Below, one piece after another: positions 4,562-12,400 of a stretch of DNA of 44,798 bases. A program made the translations under genes and the position numbers. Each line of letters opens with the position of its first letter. The stretch's first letter is position 1. Below the pieces are notes generated by a model. That model was not told where the DNA came from. It saw only the letters and a program-made list of their open reading frames with translations, and did no database searches. Source of the DNA: an uncultured Draconibacterium sp. (GTDB lineage: Bacteria; Bacteroidota; Bacteroidia; Bacteroidales; Prolixibacteraceae); NCBI RefSeq assembly GCF_913060805.1, contig NZ_CAJXTC010000042.1, forward strand, positions 1-44,798, in the 5' to 3' direction.

Positions 4562-7500
4562 ATGAAACTATTTAAGCCGATCGTTGGAATAATACTTGGA
4601 GTTTGTGCCTGGGGGACAAGCAACGTATTTGCACAAAGCGGTGATCAGATTTTGGATGGAATTGGCGAAACGGGATTGATTGCCCGTTACACCCTCGAAG
4701 AAAATGCCAAAGACTGGTCGAGAAACAATTTACATGGAAGCATCGAAGGCTCCGGTTACGAATTTGTTGACGACGAAGTATTCGACAAAGTAATTTCATT
4801 ATCCGGCGACGGAAAAACGTATATAACCATTCCCGGCGAGTTACTGGCAGGCGAGGAGTCGCTAAGTATTTCGGCCTGGGTTAATTTGCGTTCGGCCGAA
4901 GGTGGTGCGCCACTTTTCGATTTTGGCAAAGACGGAAAATCGACTTTTTATGCTGCTCCTGCAGGCGAAAACGGTTACGTGTCGCAAGTGCTTGCCGGCA
5001 CCAATACTTACACCGCCGGTTCGGAAGCTATAGAATTAAATAAATGGAACCATATAGTTGTAGTTGTTGATGTTCCAACAAAAACCTTTGCTACCTTCCT
5101 TAACGGCGAACAGGTTAGCGAAGTAAACGATGTTGAGGTAGAACTTAAACAATTGTTCGACAGCCGTAAAGGTAACGACGATCAGTTTGTTATCGGAAAA
5201 TGGCTAACTTCAGGCGATGCCTCTATTGATGCTAAACTGCACGATTTCCGCATCTACCGAATTCCTTTAAACAGAAGACAAATTGGGTGGATCAACTTCA
5301 GCGCTTTGCACAAAGAGGAAGCCGAAGAGATGATGCGTAACCGACAAGAAGCCGAACTTCAGGAGTTTCCTGAATCGACACCACAGTTGTATAACGAGTA
5401 TTTAACCAGCGTTCCAACTGTTGAAGTGGAAACCGAAGTGGGTTTTCTGCCTCGTTTGCCACGTTTTGTAAAAGGTGTTTACAGCAACGATTTCGACGGA
5501 CCTGAAGTGCGTGTGCTTTGGCCTGCTCCGGAAGATAACAGCGAAGTACAAACTGCCGGAAAATACACCGTAACCGGACGCGTTGCCGGAACCGATATTC
5601 AGCCAAAAGCTATTGTTACTGTGGTTGAGCACAATCACGATCATGATGCTCCGCACCGCACCTTGGAGGCTTTTGATTTGGATGAGGTACAGTTAACTGA
5701 AGATACGCATAACCACGAAACAAAATTTGTAGAGAACCGCGATAAATTCGTTGACGGTTTGTTGGAAACCAATCCTGATAATTTCCTTTACATGTTCCGC
5801 AATGCATTTGGTCAGGAACAACCCGCAGGTGCCGAGCCTCTGGGCGTTTGGGACAGCCAGGAAACGAAACTTCGCGGTCATGCCACAGGTCACTACCTGA
5901 GTGCTTTGGCACAGGCTTATTCAAGTGCTGCTTACGATCCTGCCATTCAGGCTAAGTTTGCCGAAAAAATGGAATACATGGTGAATACCCTGTATGAATT
6001 GGCTCAACTGTCGGGAACTCCTAAAACTGCAGGCGGTGAGTCGGTAGCCGATCCGTTGGCCGTTCCTCCGGGACCGGGAAAAGATGGTTTTGATTCAGAC
6101 TTAAGCGAAGATGGTATTCGTACCGACTACCAAAACTGGGGTAAAGGATTTATCAGTGCTTATCCACCGGATCAGTTTATTATGCTGGAACACGGCGCAA
6201 AATACGGAACCGATAACGACAAAGTTTGGGCACCCTACTATACGTTGCACAAGATTTTGGCCGGTTTAATGGATATTTACGAAGTGAGCGGCAACGAAAA
6301 AGCGCTTGACATTGTAGAAGGAATGGGCGACTGGGTACATGCACGTTTGAGTGTGGTACCAACCGAAACGCTGATCGACATCTGGAATACCTACATTGCC
6401 GGCGAATTTGGCGGTATGAACGAAGCACTGGCAAGATTAAGCCGCCTTACTAACGATAAGAGTTACCTGGAAACAGCGAAGTTATTCGATAACATCCGCG
6501 TATTTTTTGGCGATGCCGAACACTCGCACGGTCTGGCTAAAAACGTAGATATGTTCCGCGGATTGCATGCCAATCAGCACATCCCGCAAATTATGGGTGC
6601 GTTGGAGATCTATCGCGATTCAAAAGAGTCGGAATATTTCGATATTGCCGATAACTTCTGGAACAAAGCTACAGGCGATTACATGTACAGTATTGGTGGT
6701 GTTGCAGGAGCCCGTAACCCTGCCAACGCTGAATGTTTTACTGCTCAGCCGGCAACACTTTACGAGAACGGTTTTGCAGTAGGCGGACAGAACGAAACCT
6801 GTGCAACATACAACATGCTTAAATTAAGTCGCAACCTGTTCTTGTACAATCAGCAAGCCGAGTTGATGGATTATTACGAGCGCGGACTTTACAACCATAT
6901 TCTGGCATCGGTTGATGAGCATACGCCTGCAAACACTTACCACGTGCCTTTACGTGCCGGTTCGGTAAAGCATTTTAGCAATGCACACATGGACGGTTTT
7001 ACTTGTTGTAACGGTACTGCTATCGAGAGCAACACTAAATTGCAGAACTCGATCTATTTCCGCAGCGCAGATAACAAGGCTTTGTATGTAAACCTTTATG
7101 TGCCATCAACATTAAAATGGACCGATAACGATATTACTGTTACGCAAACAACAGCTTATCCGAAAGAAGATAATACAACATTAACCATCGGTGGTAGCGG
7201 CAAATTCGATTTGAATGTACGGGTACCACACTGGGCTACCAAAGGATTTTTTGTAACCGTTAACGGTAAGAAACAAGATATAAAAGCTGAACCGGGAACT
7301 TACCTTACTATCAGCCGCAAGTGGAAAGACGGTGATAAAGTTGAGTTGCGCATGCCATTCCACTTTTATTTAGAGCCGGTAATGGACCAGCAAAACGTTG
7401 CCAGTTTATTCTACGGACCGGTTTTACTGGCTGCCCAGGAAGAAGAGCCACGCAAAGAATGGCGTAAAGTAACGTTGGATGCAGAAGACATCAGCAAATC

Positions 7501-7612
7501 GATTTCAGTCGATCCTGAGAAGCTGGAGTTCGAAATTGAAGGAGTAGTTTACAAACCGTTCTACGAAACTTACGGACGTCATTCGGTTTACCTGGATGTA
7601 ACTTTGAAATAG
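4562..7612 (+). CDS. Secreted LamG + DUF1680 (GH127/GH146-type) glycosidase, likely beta-L-arabinofuranosidase
   Basis: This is a 1016-residue secreted protein. The signal peptide is about residues 1-24 (ends NVFA-QSG). A LamG/concanavalin-like domain spans about 35-245 (GLIARYTLEENAKDWS to KLHDFRIYRIPLNRRQIGWI). An Ig-like linker spans about 295-355, and a DUF1680 (alpha/alpha)6 catalytic domain runs from about 375 to the end. DUF1680 beta-L-arabinofuranosidases use a Zn-bound Cys nucleophile held by Glu-x-Cys and Cys-Cys. Here these are E745/C747 (NETCATYNMLKL) and C815/C816 (GFTCCNGTAIESN), so the site is intact. E724 may be the acid/base, with an insertion relative to GH127. The substrate is probably arabinose-containing polysaccharide or glycoprotein. 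There are no SusC/D genes nearby; a GC-rich terminator follows at 7723-7742. The exact family (GH127 or GH146) needs alignment. Confidence 0.85.
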   Translation: MKLFKPIVGIILGVCAWGTSNVFAQSGDQILDGIGETGLIARYTLEENAKDWSRNNLHGSIEGSGYEFVDDEVFDKVISLSGDGKTYITIPGELLAGEESLSISAWVNLRSAEGGAPLFDFGKDGKSTFYAAPAGENGYVSQVLAGTNTYTAGSEAIELNKWNHIVVVVDVPTKTFATFLNGEQVSEVNDVEVELKQLFDSRKGNDDQFVIGKWLTSGDASIDAKLHDFRIYRIPLNRRQIGWINFSALHKEEAEEMMRNRQEAELQEFPESTPQLYNEYLTSVPTVEVETEVGFLPRLPRFVKGVYSNDFDGPEVRVLWPAPEDNSEVQTAGKYTVTGRVAGTDIQPKAIVTVVEHNHDHDAPHRTLEAFDLDEVQLTEDTHNHETKFVENRDKFVDGLLETNPDNFLYMFRNAFGQEQPAGAEPLGVWDSQETKLRGHATGHYLSALAQAYSSAAYDPAIQAKFAEKMEYMVNTLYELAQLSGTPKTAGGESVADPLAVPPGPGKDGFDSDLSEDGIRTDYQNWGKGFISAYPPDQFIMLEHGAKYGTDNDKVWAPYYTLHKILAGLMDIYEVSGNEKALDIVEGMGDWVHARLSVVPTETLIDIWNTYIAGEFGGMNEALARLSRLTNDKSYLETAKLFDNIRVFFGDAEHSHGLAKNVDMFRGLHANQHIPQIMGALEIYRDSKESEYFDIADNFWNKATGDYMYSIGGVAGARNPANAECFTAQPATLYENGFAVGGQNETCATYNMLKLSRNLFLYNQQAELMDYYERGLYNHILASVDEHTPANTYHVPLRAGSVKHFSNAHMDGFTCCNGTAIESNTKLQNSIYFRSADNKALYVNLYVPSTLKWTDNDITVTQTTAYPKEDNTTLTIGGSGKFDLNVRVPHWATKGFFVTVNGKKQDIKAEPGTYLTISRKWKDGDKVELRMPFHFYLEPVMDQQNVASLFYGPVLLAAQEEEPRKEWRKVTLDAEDISKSISVDPEKLEFEIEGVVYKPFYETYGRHSVYLDVTLK

Positions 7613-7722
7613 TTCCATCGCAATGGCAAATGATCTGATCGTTCCATCGCGAAAAAGATACGCGCTTTCATAAAAACAATTTATTAGTTTAAAATACCTG
7701 ATTTTGTGTTAGGTTTCAAAAA

Positions 7723-7749
7723 GCCGCTTCGTTTGAAGCGGCTTTTTTT
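7723..7749 (+). terminator. Rho-independent terminator after the glycosidase gene
   Basis: Stem GCCGCTTC (7723-7730) / GAAGCGGC (7735-7742) with loop GTTT, followed by a run of seven T. The same 8-bp stem is used at 9452-9472. Confidence 0.9.
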
Positions 7750-8011
7750 ATGGCTATCGCCATTGCATAGCCCTACGGACTATGTTTAATAACTACGCAT
7801 AGCCCTGCGGACTATGCTAAGGGACTTTGCACCTTTGGCGCCTATGTGCATGGCCCTACGGACCATGTTAATGGACTTTGCACCTTTGGCGCAAATAATT
7901 TGTGAAATTCCGAGTCTTTTGACAAAATGGAGCTCCAAAGGAGCGTCGTCATAGAGCCATGCCCGAAGGGCATGGTATGAGATATGAATCAAAAATAAGC
8001 GCCAAAGGTGC
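7750..8011. repeat. Upstream composite REP/REPIN-like block beside the RAYT gene
   Basis: The block has these parts in order. ATGGC-TATC-GCCAT hairpin (7750-7763). CATAG/CTATG hairpins (7766-7784 and 7797-7817). GCACCTTTGGCGC (7829-7841). A CATGG/CCATG variant (7849-7867). GCACCTTTGGCGC again (7880-7892). GCTCC-AAA-GGAGC (7932-7944). CCATGCCC-GAA-GGGCATGG (7957-7975). GCGCCAAAGGTGC (7999-8011), the inverse of the 7880 motif. The pair 7880/7999 gives a REPIN-like unit of about 132 bp. The CATAG/CTATG to CATGG/CCATG change is compensatory. Confidence 0.85.
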
Positions 8012-8055
8012 GAAGTGGTTTACACATTTTGTATTTTAGAAAGAAAATAAATGTT

Positions 8056-8508
8056 ATGCCACAATCATTAGTCAAAAACTATATTCATTTAACCTTTAGT
8101 ACGAAAAACCGGGAACCACTAATTATCGATTCAATAAAGACGGAATTATTCGATTATTTGGGAGGCGTTTGTAAAGAGCTTGAATCGCAGCCAATAATCG
8201 TTGGAGGAGTAAACGATCATGTTCATTTGTTGTTTAATCTATCGCGAAAAATAGCCCTTATGAGCCTTGTTGAGAAGTTGAAAACACACTCTTCGAAATG
8301 GATAAAAGGGAAGGGAGATGAGTTTGTTGATTTTTATTGGCAACATGGTTATGGTGCCTTTTCTGTTAATCCGAAGCAGGTTGAAATTGTGCGGGATTAT
8401 ATTCGTAATCAGGAAACACACCACCAAACAATAGCATTTAAGGAGGAATACCAACAATTTCTGAAAGAGTATGCGGTAGATTATGATGAGCGATTTGTTT
8501 GGGACTGA
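8056..8508 (+). CDS. REP-associated tyrosine transposase (RAYT, IS200-like TnpA_REP)
   Basis: This 150-residue HUH endonuclease is of the Y1_Tnp family. The metal-binding HUH motif is H55-V-H57 in GGVNDHVHLLF and the catalytic tyrosine is Y115 in IVRDYIRNQETHH. The FYWQHGYGAFSV stretch (about 93-104) is typical of the family. RAYTs bind and nick single-stranded REP hairpins and are thought to mobilise them; they are domesticated, single-copy genes without IS ends. A longer reading from GTG at 8008 would start inside a repeat motif, so I chose the ATG at 8056, whose product begins with the usual MPQSLVKNYIHLTFSTKNR-type N terminus. The gene sits directly between two copies of the same composite hairpin block (7750-8011 and 8522-8721), its probable substrates. 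Confidence 0.9.
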   Translation: MPQSLVKNYIHLTFSTKNREPLIIDSIKTELFDYLGGVCKELESQPIIVGGVNDHVHLLFNLSRKIALMSLVEKLKTHSSKWIKGKGDEFVDFYWQHGYGAFSVNPKQVEIVRDYIRNQETHHQTIAFKEEYQQFLKEYAVDYDERFVWD

Positions 8509-8521
8509 TCTGGTCTACTAC

Positions 8522-8721
8522 GCACCTTTGGCGCTTTATGGCTATCGCCATTTTTCATAGCCCTACGGACTATGTTAATGGACTTTGCACCTTTGGCGCA
8601 GTTGATTTGTTTCGAGAGGTGAGGTTTTGGGATATTTGAGCTCCAAAGGAGCGAGGTCTCCTAGCCTTGCCCATAGGGCAAGGCTGATAGGTTGAATCAA
8701 AAAAAAAGCGCCAAGGGGGCG
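8522..8721. repeat. Downstream composite REP/REPIN-like block beside the RAYT gene
   Basis: This is the same parts list as the upstream block. GCACCTTTGGCGC (8522-8534). ATGGC-TATC-GCCAT (8538-8551). CATAG/CTATG hairpin (8556-8574). GCACCTTTGGCGC (8587-8599). GCTCC-AAA-GGAGC (8640-8652). CCTTGCCC-ATA-GGGCAAGG (8665-8683). A decayed inverse motif GCGCCAAGGGGGC (8708-8720). Compared with the upstream copy, the CCATGCCC stem has become CCTTGCCC with the matching change in the other arm, so base pairing is kept. Confidence 0.85.
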
Positions 8722-8865
8722 AAGTATTTTTATGTCCATTCCATATCCACAAATTGAAGGTACCGGGAAAACATTTTGGGGTTGATTCCGTAAACAGGCA
8801 TATCTTTTTTATTCCCTCTAAAGTTGTGTGGCCAGGCACATATTTATTCACCAAAAATCAACGTT

Positions 8866-9372
8866 ATGAAAAAATTATGCATTTTTCTTATTGTCCTTTT
8901 TGGAGTATTTGCCTGCGATGCTCCTTTCGAAGAAGAATCCGAAATGGATTTAAAATCCGGTAAAATGGTTGAACGAACCATTAAGTTTCAGAAAGCAAGT
9001 GGCGTTATGGAAGTGGTTGTTAACCCGGATGCCTGTACTGATACGGGCTTGGAAATGGTTATTACCGGAGGCGGTAATGCCACATTCCTGGGGAATTTTA
9101 CTGTTTATAATTACCTCTGTATTGATGCTGACGCAAATCCCGTTTCTCCAATATTTGGAGAGTTAACAGCTGCCAATGGAGATATGATTTATACCTGGGT
9201 AATCACAGAGCCATGGGTAGATGAAGATGGTATGCACTATCTATACGAAATTAGGGAAGGAATGTGTACCGGAAGATTTGAAGGCGCTACCGGATATATT
9301 GATATGTATGGAGTAATTGATCATGAAACCATGACCTGGGAATTGGAAGGAGAAGGTTTAATTACCTTTTAG
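8866..9372 (+). CDS. Hypothetical lipoprotein, 168 aa
   Basis: The N terminus MKKLCIFLIVLFGVFAC is a lipoprotein signal with lipobox VFAC (Cys about residue 17). The mature part has a charged linker and a beta-rich domain with a GGGNATFLGNFTVYNYLC stretch (about residues 67-84) and a CTGRFEGATGYIDM stretch (about 138-151). The closing line, EGATGYIDMYGVIDHETMTWELEGEG, resembles the ends of small secreted proteins in which a barrel closes with a conserved G-x-G, but I cannot assign a family. An in-frame TTG-type extension to 8824 precedes the signal peptide and was rejected. The gene lies between the RAYT block and a third partial REP block (9382-9430). Confidence 0.75.
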   Translation: MKKLCIFLIVLFGVFACDAPFEEESEMDLKSGKMVERTIKFQKASGVMEVVVNPDACTDTGLEMVITGGGNATFLGNFTVYNYLCIDADANPVSPIFGELTAANGDMIYTWVITEPWVDEDGMHYLYEIREGMCTGRFEGATGYIDMYGVIDHETMTWELEGEGLITF

Positions 9373-9381
9373 CGCTTATAC

Positions 9382-9430
9382 GCATAGCCCTGCGGACTAT
9401 GCTAAAAGAAAGACATTGCACCTTTGGCGC
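9382..9430. repeat. Third partial copy of the REP-like block
   Basis: A GCATAG.../CTATGC hairpin (9382-9402, loop CCCTGCGGA) is followed by GCACCTTTGGCGC (9418-9430). The spacing and order match the RAYT-flanking blocks. It lies in the short gap between the lipoprotein and the convergent nifJ gene. Confidence 0.8.
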
Positions 9431-9451
9431 AAAGAAATAGGCACAAAAAAA

Positions 9452-9476
9452 GCCGCTTCAAAACGAAGCGGCTTTT
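9452..9476. terminator. Bidirectional terminator between lipoprotein and nifJ
   Basis: Stem GCCGCTTC (9452-9459) / GAAGCGGC (9465-9472), preceded by an A-run and followed by TTTT, so it can serve both convergent genes. Confidence 0.85.
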
Positions 9477-9496
9477 CTATATAGCTTGAATAATTT

Positions 9497-12400
9497 CTAT
9501 TCTTCACCTTCTTCTTCAGGTTTTGAATAATCCATAGCTGCCATACGCTGGTATGACGCGTAACGCCATTTTGCGTTTTCTTCAGCAGCTGCAAATAATT
9601 CATCAGCCTCAGCAGGGAACGATTTCTTCAATGAAGTATAACGAACCTCACCGTTCAGGAAGTCTTGGAATTGGCTCCATTCCGGAGTTTTAGAATCCAA
9701 TTGGAATGGGTTTTTACCCTCGTCTTCCAATAGTGGATTGTAGCGGAACAAGTGCCAGTATCCTGACGATACAGCTTTTTTCTCCTCTTCCTGGGTACGT
9801 CCCATGCTGGCACGTAATCCGTGGTTGATACATGGAGAATAAGCGATAATGATAGAAGGACCTGGATAAGCCTCTGCCTCTTTCAGTGCTTTAAAGTACT
9901 GCGACTGGTTAGCTCCCATTGCTACTTGTGCAACGTATACGTAACCGTAGCTCATCATCATTGCGCCAAGGTCTTTTTTACGTACTTTTTTACCCGATGC
10001 AGCAAATTTAGCAACTGCTCCAACCGGAGTAGATTTAGACGACTGACCACCGGTGTTAGAGTAAACCTCGGTATCCATTACCAATACGTTTACATCTTCG
10101 CCGCTTGCCATTACGTGATCTAAACCACCGTAACCGATGTCGTATGCCCATCCGTCGCCACCGAATACCCAAATCGATTTTTTAACCAGGTATTGTTTCA
10201 ACGACATAATGTCTTTTGCATATTGGCTGTCGCTGTCTTTAATTACATCCAATACTTTGTTGGTTGCAACAACTGATCCTGCAGCAATATCTTTTTTCTC
10301 CAGCCATTCGCCAAATACTTCTTTCTCAGCTTCAGAAGCACCATTTGAAAGGGCAGTAGTCATAATTTCTGCAATACGATCGCGTTGTGCGCTAACACCT
10401 TCAGCGAAACCAAAACCGTACTCGGCGTTGTCTTCGAACAATGAGTTAGCCCAAGCCGGACCATGACCAGACTCTTTGTGTTTACAGTATGGAGTTGACG
10501 GAGCAGAACCACCATAGATTGAAGAACAACCTGTAGCGTTGGCAACCATCATTCTTTCACCGTAAAGCTGAGTGATCAATTTAATGTATGGAGTTTCACC
10601 ACAACCTGCACAAGCTCCCGAGAACTCGAACAATGGCTGAGCAAACTGTGAGTTTTTAACTGATTTTGTTTTGTCAACAACAGTCTCTTTAACAGTAACT
10701 TTTTTGTCCATGAAATCCCAACGACCAACTTCAGCCTGCTGAGATGCAAGTGGCTTCATTACAAGCGATTTCACTTTCGATGGACAAACATCGGCACAGT
10801 TACCACAACCTGTACAGTCGAGTGGCGATACCTGGATACGGAAATTCAATCCACCAAATACTTTTGCCGGAGTTGCTGTTTTTGTTTCGGTTCCTGCAGG
10901 TGCTGCTTCAACCTCTTCTTCTGTCATCAGGAACGGACGAATAGCCGCGTGAGGACAAACGTAAGCACACTGGTTACACTGAATACAGTTTTCCGACTGC
11001 CATTCAGGAACGTTTACTGCGATACCACGTTTTTCGTAAGCTGCTGTTCCAAGTGGGAATTGTCCATCTTCTGAACCTGCAAAAGTAGAAACAGGAAGAT
11101 CATCACCTTTTTGTGCGTTGATTACGTCAACCACTTTAGTAATGTATTCCGGACGGTCGGCATCAACAGCTGCTTCATCAGCAACAACGATGTCTTTCCA
11201 TTCAGCAGGAACTTCAACTTTCACTACGTTTTTACCACCGGCGTCAACCGCTGCGTAGTTCATGTTTACAATGTGCTCACCTTTTTTACCGTACGATTTT
11301 ACAATGGCAGCTTTCATTTGCTCAACAGCCATTTCGTAAGGAATTACCTCAGTAATTTTAAAGAAAGCCGATTGCATAATAGTGTTGGTACGAGTTCCCA
11401 AACCAATCTCTTCACCCAGTTTTGTACCGTTAATGATGTAGAAATTAATTTCGTTCTCGGCCAAATACTTCTTCATTGCATCAGGCAACTGCTTTTTGGT
11501 TTCTTCTGCGTCGTTAATCGAGTTCAGCAAGAAAGAACCACCTTTTTTCAGGCCTTTCAGCACGTCGTACATATTTACATATGCCGGAACGTGACAAGCA
11601 ACAAAGTCAGGAGTGGTAACAAGGTAAGTTGATCGGATTGGTTTATCCCCGAAGCGTAAGTGTGAACAAGTGAAACCTCCCGACTTTTTCGAGTCGTACT
11701 GGAAGTATCCCTGACATGATTTATCTGTTGAGTCACCAATAATTTTAATCGAGTTTTTGTTTGCACCAACAGTACCGTCAGAACCCAAACCGTAGAATTT
11801 AGCCTGGTAAGTTCCTTCCGGAGTCATGTTGATTTCTTCTTTCAATGGAAGTGATTTGAATGTCACATCATCAACGATACCAATTGTGAAGTTGCCTTTT
11901 GGCTCTTTCATTTCAAGGTTTTCGTAAACTGAAAGAATTTGTGAAGGAGTAGTATCTTTTGATCCTAAACCGTAACGACCACCAACAATTACAGGAGCAT
12001 CTGCTTTTCCGTAGAATTGTGATTGAACGTCAAGGAATAATGGCTCCCCGGTTGATCCCGGCTCAGCAGCACGGTCTAATACAGCAATACGTTTTACTGA
12101 ATCAGGTAATGCTTCAACAAAGTGTTTTGCTGAGAATGGACGGAACAAGTGTACCGAAATTAAACCAACTTTTTTGCCTTGAGCAGTTAAGTAGTCGATA
12201 GTTTCTTTAATGGTTTCAGTAACCGAACCCATAGCAATAATTACGTTTTCAGCATCAGGTGCACCGTAATAAGTGAAAGGACGGTATGTTCTGCCAGTAA
12301 TTTTGCTGATTTCATCCATGTAGTCAGCTACGATATCAGGAACTGCATCGTAAAATTTGTTTGCTGATTCTTTTGCCTGGAAGAAAATATCAGGGTTTTG

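Follow-up and report, generated by a model that had tools for sequence, protein, structure and literature searches.

A subclass 1.2 Y1 transposase gene between two blocks of covarying hairpins in an uncultured Draconibacterium: a probable REPtron-like element

The stretch of DNA considered here, called the window, comprises positions 1 to 44,798 of contig NZ_CAJXTC010000042.1 of an uncultured Draconibacterium sp., and it carries a gene, tnpA, for a Y1/HUH transposase that lies between two blocks of short hairpins, termed A and B and arranged in A-B-A arms. In these blocks it is the structure, and not the sequence, that is conserved, as the initial annotation of this DNA had proposed and as is now supported by covariation, by a strand bias of the wobble pairs, and by a spacing that recurs around related genes. 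The reading that we regard as probable is that the locus is similar to a REPtron, i.e., the association of repetitive extragenic palindromes (REPs) with a REP-associated tyrosine transposase (RAYT, or TnpA_REP), but built on an IS200-type enzyme (TnpA-Y1 subclass 1.2) that would process folded single-stranded DNA.

The enzyme and its hairpin blocks

The locus lies between a GH127-like gene and an oxidoreductase gene, which we take to be pyruvate oxidoreductase-like. The product of tnpA carries the motifs DHVH, WQ, and YIRNQETHH, namely the signature of TnpA-Y1 subclass 1.2 (Y---Q--HH), and by this protein signature it is a member of that subclass. It scores 61.3 bits against the IS200 family model NF033573, above the cut-off of 55, and of the proteins with a solved structure it is IS608 TnpA that it matches best in sequence. 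The catalytic residues H55, H57, Y115, and Q119 are invariant in 9 sequences, and the ratio of nonsynonymous to synonymous substitution rates (dN/dS) is 0.07-0.13 across the six pairs among four orthologs (those of the window genome, G000, and of G005, G007, and G024); the gene is kept by selection. Size, host, and copy number agree with the description of subclass 1.2 by Quentin et al. 2018 (PMC6006769), that is, a median of 148 aa, hosts among Bacteroidetes or Cyanobacteria, and a low copy number. The window TnpA has 150 aa and a Bacteroidota host, and the seven Y1 genes of its genome, all with the signature, exceed the mean of 1.7 given there but are mutually divergent, the six others being 32-39% identical to the window TnpA.

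Of 84 homolog loci, 80 have the Y motif as defined by a regular expression, including L031, where the motif ends in HP, and the remaining four are interrupted or truncated. At L032, L035, L065, and L091, the homologs have stops or are truncated and the flanking hairpins are still there.

The initial annotation had named the enzyme a RAYT, which is not borne out: RAYTs of the known classes are ruled out by Y115-x3-Q119 in place of Y---NP and by 21.2 bits against REP_Tyr_transpos NF047646, whose cut-off is 80. As for the hairpins, inspection by eye of the 9 A hairpins listed in the window showed none with GT[AG]G at the 5' foot; GTAG occurs 3' of some of them, e.g., at 8534 on the minus strand. 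The layout is that of a REPtron, with the gene bracketed by inverted hairpin pairs.

Hairpin A is 13 nt long, with a 5-bp stem and a 3-nt loop, and hairpin B has nine pairs in the fitted structure. Read 5' to 3' on the pairing strand, an arm consists of A, a linker of about 11 nt usually containing GTC, B, about 20 nt, and A again. The two arms of each block face outward from each other over 39-40 nt, and the A hairpins at 7999-8011 and 8522-8534 form an inward-facing pair around tnpA. Folded as single-stranded DNA and compared with shuffles, block 1 has z = -6.0 and block 2 z = -6.3, with 0 of 200 shuffles as good. The features are as follows.

8056..8508, plus strand: tnpA, Y1/HUH transposase, 150 aa (PF01797 85 bits, IS200 NCBIfam score, motifs, dN/dS)
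7829..8011, no strand assigned: block 1, a left-pointing arm, a 39-nt spacer, and a right-pointing A-B-A arm (sequence, folding)
7829..7841, minus strand: hairpin A (GCGCCAAAGGTGC on the minus strand)
7849..7867, minus strand: hairpin B2 (CATGGTCCGTAGGGCCATG on the minus strand), CATGG/CCATG stem
7880..7892, minus strand: hairpin A
7932..7944, plus strand: hairpin A (GCTCCAAAGGAGC)
7957..7975, plus strand: hairpin B1 (CCATGCCCGAAGGGCATGG), stem CCATGCCC/GGGCATGG
7999..8011, plus strand: hairpin A, inverse of GCACCTTTGGCGC, 44 nt upstream of the start codon
8522..8720, no strand assigned: block 2, anatomy as block 1, outermost A (8708-8720) degenerate (sequence, folding)
8522..8534, minus strand: hairpin A, beginning 13 nt past the stop codon
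8556..8574, minus strand: hairpin B2, CATAG/CTATG stem
8587..8599, minus strand: hairpin A
8640..8652, plus strand: hairpin A (GCTCCAAAGGAGC)
8665..8683, plus strand: hairpin B1 (CCTTGCCCATAGGGCAAGG), stem CCTTGCCC/GGGCAAGG, compensatory to 7957-7975
8708..8720, plus strand: degenerate hairpin A (GCGCCAAGGGGGC)
7766..7784, minus strand: solo B2 hairpin, CATAG/CTATG stem
7798..7816, minus strand: B2 hairpin paired with the A at 7829, CATAG/CTATG stem (67.7 bits)
9382..9430, minus strand: further A-B2 half unit beyond a lipoprotein-like open reading frame (60.6 bits)
7750..7763, no strand assigned: palindrome ATGGCTATCGCCAT (family D6)
8538..8551, no strand assigned: second copy of palindrome ATGGCTATCGCCAT (family D6), inside block 2

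Much of what had been described for these hairpins holds. The gene does stand between two copies of one block, as the PF01797 match and the motif coordinates confirm, and the inner hairpin GCTCCAAAGGAGC is found in both units, at 7932 and 8640. Moreover, the second hairpin changes in a compensatory manner from CCATGCCC/GGGCATGG (7957-7975) to CCTTGCCC/GGGCAAGG (8665-8683), and the outer one from CATAG/CTATG (7766-7784, 7798-7816, 8556-8574) to CATGG/CCATG (7849-7867). The extent given to the units needed correction. The motif GCACCTTTGGCGC, which starts at 7829, 7880, 8522, 8587, and 9418 and whose inverse starts at 7999, does bound the first unit (7880-8011), but the right bound of the second is the hairpin GCGCCAAGGGGGC, two changes off the motif and with its middle stem pair broken; in addition, the blocks are longer (7829-8011 and 8522-8720) than the proposed 7880-8011 and 8587-8720, and the half unit at 9382-9430 has to be added to them. 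Between block 2 and this half unit lies the lipoprotein-like open reading frame (8866-9372, 168 residues, no Pfam match), which at this locus is present in G000, G034, G013, and G030 and was not detected in G005, G007, G009, G012, and G024.

Covariation and the strand that folds

Covariation was assessed in 23 A-B units from seven genomes, i.e., the window and six ortholog loci, in which 98.1% of 322 cells pair. Cells with a double change number 36, whereas shuffles average 12.5 and slid controls do not exceed 9. In hairpin A the middle pair is seen as G-T, T-A, A-T, and C-G, and both sides have changed in five of the nine B pairs. On the A-to-B strand, the non-Watson-Crick cells comprise 37 G.T, 1 A.C, and 5 others. 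A second wobble count, in which G.T and A.C received equal treatment and the spacing determined the strand, gave for the window family 20 G.T versus 0 A.C, with ten from the arms on each strand relative to the gene. Because the G.T bias occurs in arms of both orientations, folded single-stranded DNA is favoured over one RNA.

Stems that covary and hairpins that closely flank a gene are also what would be seen if the hairpins worked in RNA, as terminators, attenuators, or mRNA stabilisers limiting the expression of the transposase. We hold this explanation to be quite unlikely, because the strand that bears the G.T pairs in the window family switches with the orientation of the arm, whereby a single transcript would hold only some of the arms in their pairing form, and because blocks are found without the gene in G034 and G013 and dispersed in G046. 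Nor did a scan of the whole window with Rfam return any family at threshold (0 families); over 7600-9500 there were 13 matches below the gathering scores, the best of them, BTnc231 at 7635-7748 (E 0.0004), lying outside the blocks.

Hairpin arrays around related genes

Homologs of TnpA at E <= 1e-10 occur in 165 of 395 sampled Bacteroidota genomes, the window genome included. Hairpins were counted around 79 tnpA loci, among them L016 and L044, which belong to one genome, and L050 and L051, which are near-identical. Their density is 6.8 per 900 nt versus 1.55 near 208 control genes, and 3.9 hairpins common to both flanks versus 0.01; at least two such common hairpins are present at 57 of the 79. 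The class with a 5-bp stem and a 3-nt loop is enriched 23-fold and, among the classes printed, the enrichment is 4.7- to 23-fold for triloops, 1.1- to 4.2-fold for tetraloops, and 1.1- to 1.9-fold for 5-nt loops. The 13-nt triloops were counted at 76 genes from 35 genomes, with the eight loci L044-L051 left out and five genes then dropped for short flanks; the resulting 71 genes have 4.92 per 900 nt, versus 0.52 at controls and 0.45 in local shuffles. The controls of these two tests, and of the spacing test below, were drawn from the window genome only, while the local shuffles use each gene's own flanks.

A further set consisted of 49 of these homolog loci from other Bacteroidota genera, chosen by protein match and not at random (29 best-match loci, 44-62% identical, and 20 hand-picked ones, 36-41%). 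The subclass 1.2 signature is present in 49 of 49. Four were dropped for short flanks, and the remaining 45 have a mean of 5.47 triloops versus 0.67 after shuffling, with triloops at 43 of them and at least two hairpins common to both flanks at 36. Farther out, over the adjoining 450 nt, the mean falls to 1.44 (n 43). The genes in all of these sets are related, and for this reason p-values overstate their independence.

The centres of neighbouring hairpins show spacing peaks at 28, 38, and 50-52 nt; measured between centres, the geometry that recurs is A, then B after 28 nt, then A after a further ~40 nt or so. The further set has its peaks at 28, 38-42, and 50-54 nt and holds 29 A-B-A triples in 20 genes. 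Triples number 44 in 67 kb of tnpA flanks versus 0 in 400 kb of genome. Compared by eye with the protein tree, the 28-nt and 51-nt layouts belong to largely separate clades; exceptions include the L010 group, L015, and L059. Geometry recurs while hairpin sequence diverges. Cross-genome pairs of loci share identical 13-mers in 41 of 60 cases at >=80% protein identity, 83 of 120 at 60-80%, 74 of 447 at 45-60%, and 59 of 2131 below 45%. Same-genome pairs do so in 2 of 2 at 60-80%, 4 of 15 at 45-60%, and 4 of 75 below 45%. The seven Y1 genes of the window genome are flanked by different hairpin sets, bar one type at two genes.

These figures bear on the idea that the hairpins are older and that the transposase inserts into them, in the way that REPs serve as targets for some IS elements. 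Such insertion has been published (PMC1525189), and related hairpins do occur in a dispersed repeat family of the window genome; yet hairpin identity follows protein similarity across genomes, and the hairpins of paralogs are nearly absent from a 400-kb genome sample (2 of 21 patterns, with one exact match each), which makes this order of events improbable.

Dispersed copies were seen in one relative, G046, with a gene that is 58% identical. There GCACCAANGGTGC has 32 exact sites spread over 14 contigs (6 on the contig of the gene; 0 in the reversed control), and blocks are visible away from its one homolog; the same motif occurs 4 times in the window genome, 3 times in G026, and 0 times in G027, G049, and G052. 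Bacteroides xylanisolvens XB1A has GCCCTGAAAGGGC 8 times, 2 of them at the gene, with 0 in the control. The L007 type has 10 sites in the window genome, 6 of them at two tnpA genes, and the reversed control has 3 sites.

Array length varies as well. In Draconibacterium orientale FH5T (L044), whose locus coincides in coordinates with the match in G005, a genome listed under the same genus as the window, one upstream arm is extended to A-B-A-B-A. The named metagenome-assembled genomes (MAGs) of L050 and L051 differ at the same locus in the copy number of an 80-bp hairpin unit, 1 in L050 and about 5 in L051, with 97.9% identity over 2.6 kb upstream and 94.4% over 2.3 kb downstream, and XB1A has a 64-bp hairpin unit repeated 6.5 times. 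Such tandem arrays stand directly 5' of the tnpA homologs at L045:2516-2933 (XB1A, 64-bp) and L051:2585-2963 (Bacteroidetes MAG, 80-bp).

At the window locus itself, tnpA is present in four genomes (G000, G005, G007, G024). G034 and G013 have no tnpA there and keep one block, G012 has an apparent decayed B-A recognised by eye, where the model at E 0.1 gave no match, and G009 has a single A (17.7 bits); in G030, inspection and model search found neither gene nor block. A small marker tree, made from one gene fragment and with some weak nodes, mixes holders and non-holders, and on this ground the gene has likely been lost repeatedly at the locus. A presence test with the model R1, which was built from the loci of seven genomes, is partly circular for that reason, and the informative matches are those outside these loci, in G013 and G034, in G046, and at extra sites in G026. 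R1 also matched weakly (30-46 bits) at sites without a known Y1 gene in G002, G005, G009, G013, G020, G024, G025, and G052, and three weak matches on contig C33 (35-43 bits) are other hairpin types. At L112, different short hairpins (2400-2560 and 5000-5300) flank a secreted-protein-like reading frame on a contig where no Y1 gene was found.

An ordinary IS200/IS605 insertion sequence, in which the gene and its nearest hairpins move as a unit and the extra hairpins are decayed ends, would account for the IS200 score, for the IS608 match, and for the inward-facing A pair around the gene. It would also account for the orthologs in G001, G020, and G026 (67-73% identical), which are not beside the oxidoreductase gene but on other contigs or far from it. 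Against it stand the lack of a second near-identical copy in the window genome, where the nearest other Y1 gene is 39% identical, the close orthologs that sit in the same place under strong selection, and the presence of arrays instead of one hairpin per end, so that we rate it as unlikely. Least credible is an inert relic, a decaying array now read by nothing: the broken boundary hairpin at 8708-8720 and the apparent decayed remnants in G012 and G009 are of the kind that it predicts, but the compensatory changes, the spacing that recurs, and the purifying selection on the gene are not.

The favoured reading and the known systems

The REPtron-like element that we favour would work in the manner of REP/RAYT and IS200 single-strand processing, with cleavage, binding, and mobility inferred. 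The enzyme would bind the folded A-B-A strand when the DNA is single-stranded, e.g., at the replication fork, would cut near the hairpin feet, and would join the ends, and this cutting and joining might occasionally duplicate, delete, or move blocks. The hairpins would then be what the enzyme itself acts on, in this genus for the most part retained in cis, and either parental strand could present a substrate because the arms face both ways. The array lengths that differ between close relatives, the gene-free blocks or scar, and the one dispersed case support this reading.

Several observations weigh against it. The wobble bias is weaker in other clades (18 versus 4) and not clear in the further Bacteroidota set (6 versus 4). 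No hairpin is common to both flanks at 22 of the 79 loci, 13-nt triloops stand on both sides of only 47 of the 71 genes and are absent from 6, all in the L009 clade, and the A-B-A triple is found in only 7 of 20 protein clusters. Paralog hairpin families can overlap, as with the GTCCC..GGGAC type present at both the L007 and L012 genes. Where the gene is absent and one block remains, the cause can be ordinary recombination of direct repeats; the two blocks are direct, and homologous recombination acting on them could delete the gene, and the data fit either route. Finally, the 13-mer GCACCTTTGGCGC has 6 sites in the 5.48-Mb window genome, all within 7829-9430, and therefore does not form a dispersed REP population in this host.

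The genome-wide site counts thus reject a dispersed REPIN population of the window's exact motif, and REP-like dispersal stands for the relative G046 and falls for the exact 13-mer in the host. Motifs confined to this place in the genome were what the initial annotation had named as contradicting it. The motif is largely confined there, with all six 13-mers, though not wholly, since the looser A pattern GCNCCAAAGGNGC has 14 exact sites in the window genome, 8 at the locus and six elsewhere. Each of these six is <=100 nt from an end motif (<=2 mismatches) of a separate dispersed repeat family. This family, with ends like CGTCCGGCGAAGA, has 28 matches at <=2 mismatches and 1 in the reversed control, lies outside the window on G000 contigs C4, C15, C18, C20, C38, C76, and others (L174-L201), and holds A-B-like arms; none of its matches adjoins any of the seven Y1 genes, and a few of the 28 resemble chance matches in coding sequence.

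A broader proposal, to which we give somewhat less than even chances, is that of a phylum-wide class of IS200-type HUH enzymes, each maintaining in cis a hairpin array of private sequence and conserved geometry. If true, Y1 systems would include a third kind, intermediate between insertion sequences and REPtrons: enzyme and array would diverge together, and only occasionally would they spread elsewhere in the genome. That the Bacteroidota form is a distinct subtype, as suggested from the start, is supported. A class-1 (IS200-type) enzyme in a class-2 style hairpin surround bears on the relation of IS200 to domesticated REP systems, and the states seen at the window locus form a natural series, from the gene with both its blocks, through a single block that lacks the gene and an apparent remnant, to none. 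Covariation and recurring spacing define exact substrates, and the several paralogs per genome suit a comparison of cross-recognition.

Among the known systems, subclass 1.2 as presented in PMC6006769 is alike in DHVH, WQ, and Y---Q--HH, in a length of about 150 aa, in Bacteroidota hosts, and in single divergent copies. It is described there as generally without IS200-type hairpins, unlike most loci examined here, which have arrays. The automatic REP search reported in that paper demanded GTAG/GTGG and a basal stem of >=7 nt, so the present hairpins, with stems of only 5 bp, would fail it; no later report of hairpins around subclass 1.2 was found in the open-licence literature searched. The CGTC-tagged REPs of Di Nocera 2013 (PMC3733652) are likewise short palindromes, mostly head-to-head dimers, that also occur in Bacteroidetes, but they have 8-9 bp stems, 4-5 nt loops, and no link there to a transposase gene; membership of the window's A hairpins, with 5-bp stem and 3-nt loop, in that group failed. 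IS200/IS605 elements (IS608, ISDra2), whose model mechanism is the recognition of subterminal hairpins in single-stranded DNA (PMC6006769), provide the best solved-structure match. Theirs are small hairpins at two ends and near-identical copies, whereas the window locus has arrays of hairpins and a gene whose position is maintained in close relatives. Lastly, REPtrons (E. coli, Stenotrophomonas, Marinomonas) share with the window a Y1 HUH gene that lies between short hairpins in inverted pairs, a hairpin family specific to the enzyme, and hairpins that are sometimes concentrated near the gene, as PMC8266576 relates for Marinomonas. The window differs from them in having Y---Q--HH where RAYTs have Y---NP, in A hairpins without the GT[AG]G that RAYT hairpins carry 0-2 nt 5' of the foot, in the 5-bp triloop A combined with a longer B in A-B-A arms, and in an exact hairpin that is not dispersed in its own genome.
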